The notes under the pieces were generated by a model, which had not been told where the DNA came from, ran no database searches, and was given only the letters and a program-made list of their open reading frames with translations. DNA of 24,837 bases. It comes from a bacterium (GTDB taxonomy: Bacteria; SZUA-182; DTGQ01). The stretch is taken from positions 1 to 24,837 of the forward strand of contig JAILZY010000052.1 in the NCBI GenBank assembly GCA_023512255.1, given 5' to 3'. Shown piece by piece: positions 3,154-5,495 of the stretch. Position numbers and translations under genes: made by a program. Each line of letters opens with the position of its first letter. Position 1 is the stretch's first letter.

Positions 3154-4476
3154 TTATGATTTTAGACTGTCCGGCTCACTGTTGGGGTACAAATAAGGAG
3201 AGTGAGAAAAAATCCCCGCGGTATTCAATATCCCCTCACTGGCTACTGCTGCATCGTAGTCCTGATGCAAGGTGGCCGGAGCGACGGCCAGCCAATGTTC
3301 CCCAGCCATAGAGATAGCAAAAGCTCCAAGCGGTGCGGTCAGGATAATGCTTAGTATCGCAACAGCTAAGATAAGCTCACCCGGTCCGCTATTCATGCCT
3401 GCAAGCCTCATGGCGGCTAGGGGAGCAGCTCCAAAAGCTGCCTGAACGGTAGCTTTTGGAAGATAAGAGACCACGACGAACATTTTCTCTTTAAGGGTTA
3501 AATTGCTGCCACAAACACAGAGGAAGGTTCCAATGCTTCGGGCGATGAGAGCAAGCCCGATCAAGGCACAACCGGCCAGCCCCGCCCGCAGAGCAACCGG
3601 TATGTTGACCTGTACGCCTACCATCACAAAAAGCATAATTTCAGCGAAAACCCAGATTTTACCAAGTCTAGCCGAGATTTCATGAGCCATGGATTCTCGC
3701 TTTTCCAGGATGATAAAACCGATGGCCATAACTCCTAACAAGGCCGCAAATGGTATCCGCTCCTTCATAAGACGTTCAAACTGGACTAGAAGGATAGAAA
3801 TCCCAATGATCAAAAGTACCCGTTTGGTTGCCCGCGGGTTGAACCGATCGAACAAATGGTACAGAAAATAACCAATAAGCAAGCCAGCACCTATGCCTAA
3901 GCAAATGGAAATAGGGATGGTGGCTAACTTCCAGATGACATTGACCTTATGGCCTGTATATATGCCAATCAGGGCGCTATAGACAGTAATGACATAGACA
4001 TCGTCCATAGATGCCCCAGCCAAGACCAAGGAGGGAATCCCCTTCTCTACTCCCTTCCCTTGTTCGATGAAGCGGATCATGAGTGGTACGACCACAGCCG
4101 GAGAGACCGCCGAGAGCACAAAACCGAGAACTGCCGACTCAAGGTAAGTCAGCCCCAAAAAATGCGGGGCAAGGATGGTTATGGCCACAGCTTCAAAAGA
4201 GGCTGGAATAAAGGAAAGCCGAGCAGCCATTTTACCCACCTTGTTTAGAGTATCCTTGCTCAATTCAAACCCTGCCCGCAGCAGAATTATAATTAGGGCT
4301 ATCAGCCGCAGGTCAGCCGCAATCGCTAAAAGGTCCGGATTCAGGCAACCAAGGGCATAGGGACCAAGGATCACGCCGAGCAATAGCATTCCCACCAAAC
4401 CCGGTAGCCGAACTTTTCGGAATAACCAGTCAATAATCAAACTGAAAATGACAATTTCCGCCAGCGCTAGAGCCAT
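3154..4476 (-). CDS. NHA/CPA2-type cation:proton antiporter
   Basis: A 440-residue integral membrane protein with about 12 hydrophobic segments. Residues 31-43 (LLLGVILGPYALG) form the conserved early helix of CPA transporters, 122-132 (SAVSPAVVVPL) the core discontinuous helix, and 154-160 (GASMDDV) carries the paired aspartates D158-D159 typical of electrogenic two-Asp antiporters. The GIPSL...GASMDD spacing resembles the NHA (SLC9B-like) branch. There is no TrkA-N nucleotide-binding domain, so it is not a full KefB/C. It should exchange Na+ or another cation for H+ across the inner membrane. GAGGAAAAG lies upstream of the ATG. It is read from a promoter near 4990 through a fluoride riboswitch and terminator, so it is probably induced by fluoride. 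No crcB/fluc or clcF is present in the window. Confidence 0.88.
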   Translation of the reverse strand: MALALAEIVIFSLIIDWLFRKVRLPGLVGMLLLGVILGPYALGCLNPDLLAIAADLRLIALIIILLRAGFELSKDTLNKVGKMAARLSFIPASFEAVAITILAPHFLGLTYLESAVLGFVLSAVSPAVVVPLMIRFIEQGKGVEKGIPSLVLAGASMDDVYVITVYSALIGIYTGHKVNVIWKLATIPISICLGIGAGLLIGYFLYHLFDRFNPRATKRVLLIIGISILLVQFERLMKERIPFAALLGVMAIGFIILEKRESMAHEISARLGKIWVFAEIMLFVMVGVQVNIPVALRAGLAGCALIGLALIARSIGTFLCVCGSNLTLKEKMFVVVSYLPKATVQAAFGAAPLAAMRLAGMNSGPGELILAVAILSIILTAPLGAFAISMAGEHWLAVAPATLHQDYDAAVASEGILNTAGIFSHSPYLYPNSEPDSLKS

Positions 4477-4552: not shown

Positions 4553-4756
4553 GACTGGCACTGGTTCAGTTTGATTTAAAATCAAGGTGAACAAATTTTG
4601 TATTTTTGTAAGTACTTGAAATAATAAAATCTTGCTCTATCCTCCGTCATTCTTGCAAAAGCGGTAATCCAGTCATATCATGGATTCCTACTCTTGCAGG
4701 AATGACGAAAAAGACAAAAGTAGAGGTTTTCAATTAAACTGAACCAATGCCGACTC
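4553..4756. mobile_element. ~204-bp nested palindromic MITE-like element
   Basis: Outer arms 4553-4582 and 4727-4756 are inverted copies sharing TTGGTTCAGTTT (left copy CTGGTTCAGTTT). A second, inner palindrome of 27-bp arms at 4645-4671 and 4681-4707 resembles the widespread CGTCATTC...GGAATCCA / TGGATTCC...GAATGACG bacterial repeat. There is no transposase and no ORF. It lies in the transcribed leader of the antiporter, downstream of the terminator and 77 bp before the start codon, and would fold into a long stem in the mRNA. Confidence 0.8.
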
Positions 4757-4779: not shown

Positions 4780-4824
4780 AAAAAAAAGGCCCTTACCAGC
4801 GTTACTAACCCTGGTAAGGGCCTT
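4780..4824 (-). terminator. Intrinsic terminator of the fluoride-riboswitch leader
   Basis: Arms 4811-4824 and 4786-4799 are perfect 14-bp complements (AAGGCCCTTACCAG and its inverse) with an 11-nt loop. On the minus strand they are followed by eight U residues (A-run at 4780-4787). The position just downstream of the aptamer makes it the likely expression-platform terminator. In the other direction it has no T-run. Confidence 0.88.
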
Positions 4825-4873
4825 CATATTCACACATCATAAGCCTTTTTGCTGACCCCTACCAAGAGTTAAA

Positions 4874-4936
4874 CAGTAGGAGTCATCAGCTCCGGGCTTA
4901 TTCAGAGCACTTTACGGCGGAACTCCATCGCCTGCC
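4874..4936 (-). promoter_or_regulatory. Fluoride riboswitch (crcB motif)
   Basis: Read on the minus strand the segment contains GGCGATGGAGTTCCGCC, then AAAGTGCTCTGAATAAGC, then GGAGCTGATGACTCCTAC, in the order and spacing of the crcB-motif fluoride aptamer. The 3' part can instead pair downstream: GCTGA..ACTCCTAC with GTAGGGGTCAGC (4851-4864 region), giving a competing hairpin. Next comes the intrinsic terminator at 4780-4824. Fluoride binding should favour antitermination and expression of the antiporter. Recognition is by eye from the consensus; a covariance search was not run. Confidence 0.88.
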
Positions 4937-4960
4937 AGAAATATATCGGCTTTTATTGAA

Positions 4961-4990
4961 ATTTTAATTTAAGGTAATATTAGATGTCAA
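4961..4990 (-). promoter_or_regulatory. Sigma70-type promoter for riboswitch and antiporter
   Basis: On the minus strand TTGACA (4985-4990) is followed after 18 bp by TAAAAT (4961-4966). The predicted start near 4954 lies about 18 nt before the aptamer, as expected for a leader RNA. Confidence 0.55.
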
Positions 4991-5139: not shown

Positions 5140-5192
5140 TAGTACACTGGTATTAACTAATAACCCTAAACCACTGTTATGAGGTGAAGCTT

Positions 5193-5495
5193 ATGTACAA
5201 AAAGATCGAATGCAGGTTAGCTATTTTGTTGATATGCGCTATAATTGGTTGTCTGTTTTTTGCCGGTCCGACCTTGGCTGATGCTCCTAAGCCGATAGAG
5301 CCTCCTATTAGTGAGATAAGAGAGGCAGTGATAGAGTTTATCCGTGGGTTTAGCCCTCAGTTAGCTGAGCAGATAGAAACCATGATCGAGAAGCGGCAGG
5401 AATTAGTGGAAAAGATCCTAGAAAGAATAAGGCCGGATAAACCAGTGCCTCCAACACCAGCAACGGGAATCATTGGGGTCTCAGCCGCGCCCTGA
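5193..5495 (+). CDS. Small secreted helical protein, unknown function
   Basis: A 100-residue protein. Residues 1-8 are basic, 9-25 hydrophobic, and a signal-peptidase site fits after A29 (T-L-A). The mature part starts with a Pro-rich stretch (PKPIEPP), has one long charged amphipathic helix (about residues 38-76, with repeated E-x-x-E and I-E-x-x-x pattern), and ends with a second Pro-rich, then hydrophobic tail. GAGGTGA lies just upstream of ATG 5193. I do not recognise a family. It is probably periplasmic or extracellular. It is divergent from the fluoride-regulated antiporter and followed by a hairpin terminator, so it is likely monocistronic. Confidence 0.7.
   Translation: MYKKIECRLAILLICAIIGCLFFAGPTLADAPKPIEPPISEIREAVIEFIRGFSPQLAEQIETMIEKRQELVEKILERIRPDKPVPPTPATGIIGVSAAP

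Follow-up and report, generated by a model that had tools for sequence, protein, structure and literature searches.

The window, the whole stretch of 24,837 nucleotides that was analysed, carries on its minus strand a promoter, a fluoride riboswitch aptamer with a competing hairpin, and an intrinsic terminator. These are followed first by a feature overlooked in the earlier note on this DNA, a MITE-like element within the leader, and then by the gene of an antiporter of the NHA/SLC9B clade. The positions are collected in Table 1.

Table 1 Features of the riboswitch-antiporter locus, in positions of the window.
Feature	Position	Strand	Details
Promoter	4961..4990	(-)	-35 TTGACA 4990-4985; -10 TAAAAT 4966-4961; spacer 18 nt
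Fluoride riboswitch aptamer, RF01734	4870..4941	(-)	54.3 bits, E 1.1e-12
Anti-pseudoknot hairpin	4854..4884	(-)	arms 4884-4874 and 4864-4854; minimum-energy fold
Predicted antiterminator	4810..4866	(-)	4866-4854 paired with terminator 5' arm 4822-4810, 13 bp
Intrinsic terminator	4780..4825	(-)	15-bp stem and U8; inverted repeat and fold
MITE-like element, 195 bp	4557..4751		25-bp terminal inverted repeats; between terminator and start codon
NHA/SLC9B-clade antiporter, 440 aa	3154..4476	(-)	PF00999 138 bits; 7b4l NHA2 E 1.5e-52

The earlier note had proposed a minus-strand promoter, a crcB-motif aptamer, a competing hairpin and an intrinsic terminator, and all four were recovered. The promoter matches the consensus at 11 of 12 positions. 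When the whole window was searched against Rfam with cmscan, the aptamer was the sole RNA-family match, full length (model positions 1-64) and well above the cut-off of 34 bits. No second fluoride riboswitch was found in the 3.83-Mb source genome, and the window copy is the only one. The GGAG/CUCC pairing of the pseudoknot is present. Covariation with changes on both sides was found in P1, in P2 and in the long-range pseudoknot among 22 homologues. By score and helices the aptamer belongs to RF01734, and it would be expected to bind fluoride and Mg2+. The hairpin and the terminator both fold as described, and the 171-nt leader reached a folding z of -5.2 against shuffled sequences. The terminator was not listed by a simple terminator scanner, probably because its loop region is longer than the scanner limit of 8 nt. 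Aptamer and terminator are also kept in two related genomes, G002 of the same genus and G003 of the same family; in G002 the promoter hexamers at the matching place are identical as well. The anti-pseudoknot hairpin arrangement is shared with both by folding. On the opposite strand upstream of the promoter, a 103-aa reading frame with a hydrophobic N-terminus was seen (5184-5495, plus strand), for which no Pfam match was found. Elsewhere on the plus strand, two consecutive frames look like the parts of a single divided gene: 2214-2513 corresponds to the first half of the 182-position DUF507 profile and 2558-2833 to the second.

The switch was modelled from energies only, by folding the transcript at successive lengths, once with the pseudoknot strands free and once with them blocked. 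In the free course the anti-pseudoknot hairpin is predicted to form, followed by the terminator. The antiterminator was predicted only with the pseudoknot strands blocked, at transcript lengths of 133-151 nt, a range that ends just before the 3' arm of the terminator is complete. In this energy prediction the two co-transcriptional folds are mutually exclusive and differ as an ON switch requires. The same alternation was predicted in G003 and, more weakly, in G002. At full length the terminator is favoured in both the free and the bound-like folds, so switching would have to be kinetic. Kinetic switching is usual for such riboswitch platforms.

These folds suggest a fluoride-ON transcriptional riboswitch controlling the antiporter. 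When fluoride is absent, the aptamer 3' ACUCC strand would pair with the downstream GUAGGGGU segment, the terminator would form, and transcription would stop. With fluoride and Mg bound, ACUCC would be locked in the pseudoknot, and the released GGUAGGGGUC segment would pair with the 5' arm of the terminator to allow read-through, which would cross the later MITE-like insertion and reach the antiporter gene. The proposed switch is three-way, with two alternative partners, aptamer or terminator, for the GGUAGGGG segment.

The earlier note had also named the target as an NHA-type antiporter with a DD motif, and this assignment is upheld. Among solved structures, human and bison SLC9B2/NHA2 are the best relatives of the frame 4476..3154. 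The structure predicted for it, with a pLDDT of 84, aligned best to bison NHA2, with a VIA Z of 45.2 and 2.6 A over 385 residues at 33% identity. NhaP structures rank close behind, with lower identity. The residues D158-D159, E95, R313, K341 and T343 match the ion site of NHA2: D158/D159 form the DD motif, E95-R313 the NHA-specific salt bridge, and K341 and T343 are the K and T of NHA2. In bison NHA2 the DD motif is D277/D278 and the salt bridge E214-R431, and NHA2 is reported to be electroneutral despite this motif (PMC8850199). Across 39 homologues E95, R313, K341 and T343 are invariant, and the DD pair deviates in only 2. Its sequence, its predicted structure and the intact ion-site residues all place the protein in the NHA/SLC9B clade.

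The element in the leader is short, has terminal inverted repeats and occurs in several copies, as MITEs do. It is flanked by AGTC at both ends (4755-4752 and 4556-4553). A second full copy, 92% identical, lies at G000:C122:24437-24634 of the same genome, and 13 further partial matches were found there. A clean target-site duplication was looked for at the C122 copy and none was seen. In G003 the leader has no such element and the start codon lies 117 nt past the aptamer, so the insertion in the window leader is probably recent.

The homologue survey for upstream aptamers that the earlier note had proposed was carried out. An alignment-guided scan of GTDB contigs gave 80 relatives at 50-68% identity, which span Spirochaetota, Desulfobacterota, Nitrospirota, Bacteroidota, Planctomycetota, Kiritimatiellota, Alphaproteobacteria and others. 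Their upstream regions were searched with a covariance model built from 22 aptamers. Among loci with enough upstream DNA, 41 of 77 have an aptamer within 250 nt upstream on the same strand, one of them weak (L025, 16.9 bits). A stricter count, with a threshold of 20 bits and only genes preceded by at least 300 nt of DNA, gave 35/70 NHA genes against 8/348 other ORFs of the same loci (Fisher 6e-24). Within Spirochaetota 23 of 30 loci are linked; when 20 of the Spirochaetota loci were re-checked with Rfam, 5 scored above the cut-off and the AT-rich remainder below it. Sixteen loci scored negative or weak were also negative by Rfam. Rfam itself detects the riboswitch before each of the five intact plasmid-borne homologues inspected, in one case with a CBS-domain gene between riboswitch and NHA. 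With the plasmid, locus and gene counts together, the idea of a one-off pairing was rejected. The earlier note had called it a less usual pairing, which did not hold: about half of the sampled clade is linked, and a 2024 review (PMC11139923, citing Baker 2012) places Na+/H+ antiporters second in frequency among the classes associated with the riboswitch. According to that review, about 15% of Flucs and about 30% of CLC-Fs are linked, and the linkage of the NHA clade is at least as strong, with samples and methods that differ between the surveys.

Many NHA genes have no aptamer upstream. In the protein tree, linked genes are scattered among unlinked ones, with about 21 changes, a pattern that would suit an old riboswitch-NHA association with repeated loss; the rows L049 and L181 were ignored for their extreme long branches, which are probably wrongly picked frames. 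G003 has the riboswitch with an NHA orthologue behind it. Exceptions occur on both sides of the pairing. G007 has an NHA orthologue at 68% identity and no aptamer. G002 keeps the riboswitch, but no NHA, CrcB or CLC was found in its genome; the small reading frame after its riboswitch (L016 5959-6710) is broken by repeat-like sequence and gave no Pfam match.

Several arrangements at other loci were also observed. At four loci (L026 2341-6257, L053 2960-6461, L060 2977-6470 and L080 4173-6455) a dynamin-family GTPase gene (PF00350; a shortened one in L080) comes between the riboswitch and the NHA gene, an order that suggests a fluoride-induced dynamin-NHA operon. Additional fluoride riboswitches were seen at L075 5676-6430 and L091 6487-7835. 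One of them precedes a lone 95-aa protein resembling the C-terminal tail of desulfobacterial NHAs, and the other precedes a further PF00999 antiporter, different from the first. A truncated NHA-like antiporter fragment (L023 4022-4570), 47% identical to residues 207-396, occurs on hundreds of enterobacterial plasmids; in one annotated record it sits between an ISL3 transposase and rmtB1.

The occurrence of the known fluoride exporters was compared with that of the NHA clade. In the window genome no PF02537 (Fluc/CrcB) match and no CLC (PF00654) match was found. Assembly gaps are an unlikely cause of the missing CrcB, since the completeness of the genome is 96.6% and the relatives G003 and G007 also have no CrcB. 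Only 2 of 50 other genomes holding the NHA clade, drawn from many phyla, have CrcB. Among 296 Spirochaetota genomes, 48 have the NHA clade, 96 have CrcB and none has both, where 15.6 shared genomes would be expected (0/48 NHA-positive against 96/248 NHA-negative). The corresponding numbers are 1/20 against 6/35 in Desulfobacteria, which is not significant, and 0/3 against 2/6 in the phylum of the window. The Fisher value for Spirochaetota is 1.1e-9 and the Mantel-Haenszel p for the three sets pooled is 1.2e-7, both counting genomes as independent, which they are not, many of the 48 Spirochaetota being close relatives. With 8 independent NHA lineages in Spirochaetota the chance of zero CrcB would be about 0.02, and with 15 about 0.0006. 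NHA and CrcB were found together in the genomes of L044 and L102 and in G094.

Many of the 50 NHA genomes carry CLC proteins. The three CLC-F signatures (GNNLI/GMGLI, GREGT/V and GEVTP in a Voltage_CLC protein) were looked for in the CLC matches of these 50, and none was found. Hidden CLC-F proteins among these matches were rejected, the CLC-F motif being in none where the filter was alignable. A single CLC-F regex match was discarded because it sat in an unrelated frame. The link between the riboswitch and antiporters in general is already known (PMC11139923; PMC11477304 for C. difficile). Nothing specific on NHA or dynamin with fluoride riboswitches was found in the literature, the gene tables of Baker 2012 and Stockbridge 2012 being outside the search, and no earlier report of the mutual avoidance of NHA and CrcB was found in the literature searched.

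Linkage across phyla and avoidance of CrcB support the earlier proposal that this branch may take part in fluoride tolerance. We consider it fairly probable that a fluoride-ON riboswitch controls here an NHA antiporter that acts as a stand-alone fluoride-tolerance transporter, replacing Fluc or CLC-F. With its ion site intact, the antiporter most likely still exchanges cations for H+ electroneutrally, as NHA2 does, and it may ease fluoride by handling the protons and the pH gradient behind HF entry and F- trapping. A wider claim, which we put forward tentatively, is that the riboswitch-linked NHA clade would be a third, unrecognised stand-alone prokaryotic fluoride-resistance family, perhaps a true F- exporter, that replaces Fluc/CLC-F in whole lineages. 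The lineages meant are many Spirochaetota, candidate phyla and anaerobes thought to be without fluoride exporters; Spirochetes and Fusobacteria are named among such groups in the 2024 review (PMC11139923). Bacterial fluoride tolerance has so far been attributed to two exporter families. NHA may be the main fluoride defence of the bacteria carrying the riboswitch-linked branch, which almost never have the standard fluoride channel. If the clade does the job alone, a defence does exist in species scored as without a fluoride exporter, and the human NHA2 exchanger would have a close bacterial relative whose physiological role is clear.

A pH-helper model can be tested sharply against a replacement model by means of the mutual avoidance. 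In the former, which is the current view (PMC11139923), the antiporter would be an accessory of pH homeostasis that aids only against HF acidification, with fluoride dealt with otherwise. The NHA2-like ion-site residues would fit such a role, and so does C. difficile, where a riboswitch-controlled ClC-type protein is paired with an NhaP-type antiporter (PMC11477304), an arrangement that fits a helper role for the NhaP type. A helper should co-occur with exporters, however, whereas the NHA clade avoids CrcB and the CLC matches in its genomes lack the CLC-F signature, which makes this role unlikely here. A pure helper role does not predict the avoidance of CrcB, so NHA probably substitutes for a fluoride exporter; replacement of the known exporters is the more likely reading, as the clade avoids them and is wired to the fluoride switch. 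Direct export, with the NHA clade as a third prokaryotic F- transporter family working for instance by F-/H+ antiport or by moving F- with a cation, would suit the exporter-like genomics, that is, high riboswitch linkage and avoidance of Fluc, much as Fluc and CLC-F avoid each other, with both in about 3% of strains (PMC11139923). It is somewhat less doubtful than the helper role and still improbable, given that the DD motif, E95-R313, K341 and T343 are those of the cation/H+ exchanger NHA2 in nearly all of the 39 homologues and that an anion-site signature was not found in the clade. The unchanged cation site favours cation/H+ chemistry, and direct F- export is kept as the main alternative.

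Two further explanations concern the switch and the statistics. The 195-bp insertion between terminator and ORF may have uncoupled the switch at this locus, leaving the gene under another promoter or ending transcripts in the element. The element contains a strong hairpin by folding and a weak promoter-like match on the strand of the gene. The scanner found no terminator-like site within it, though, and with promoter, aptamer and terminator intact and the ORF full length, uncoupling appears quite improbable. The exclusion of CrcB could also be a by-product of lineage, if a few NHA-bearing clades happen to be without CrcB. The lack of significance in Desulfobacteria and a cluster of very similar NHAs in the Spirochaetota set are in line with this. 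Against it, the same pattern is seen in several phyla and several well separated NHA lineages are present among the Spirochaetota loci, and we regard a lineage effect as rather doubtful.

Compared with known systems, the leader shares with other fluoride riboswitches (crcB motif, RF01734) the aptamer sequence, P1/P2, the pseudoknot and the intrinsic-terminator platform. It differs in its target, an NHA-clade antiporter in place of Fluc or CLC-F, and in the MITE-like element. With SLC9B2/NHA2, of the animal-NHA-like CPA2 clade, the antiporter shares the fold, the DD motif, the E-R salt bridge, and the K and T near the TM12 break. NHA2 itself has been studied as a Na+(Li+)/H+ exchanger, whereas the window clade is bacterial, with about half of its sampled relatives under a fluoride riboswitch. 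Fluc/CrcB channels are controlled by the same riboswitch class and apparently fill the same niche, but they are a family unrelated to NHA and absent from the window genome. CLC-F F-/H+ antiporters, also an unrelated family, are riboswitch-linked and seldom found in one genome with Fluc, as is the NHA clade. The C. difficile CD0656-7 operon, similar to the window, places a cation/H+ antiporter under a fluoride riboswitch, but there it shares one operon with the ClC-type gene (PMC11477304) and is set apart by its annotation as NhaP, not NHA.
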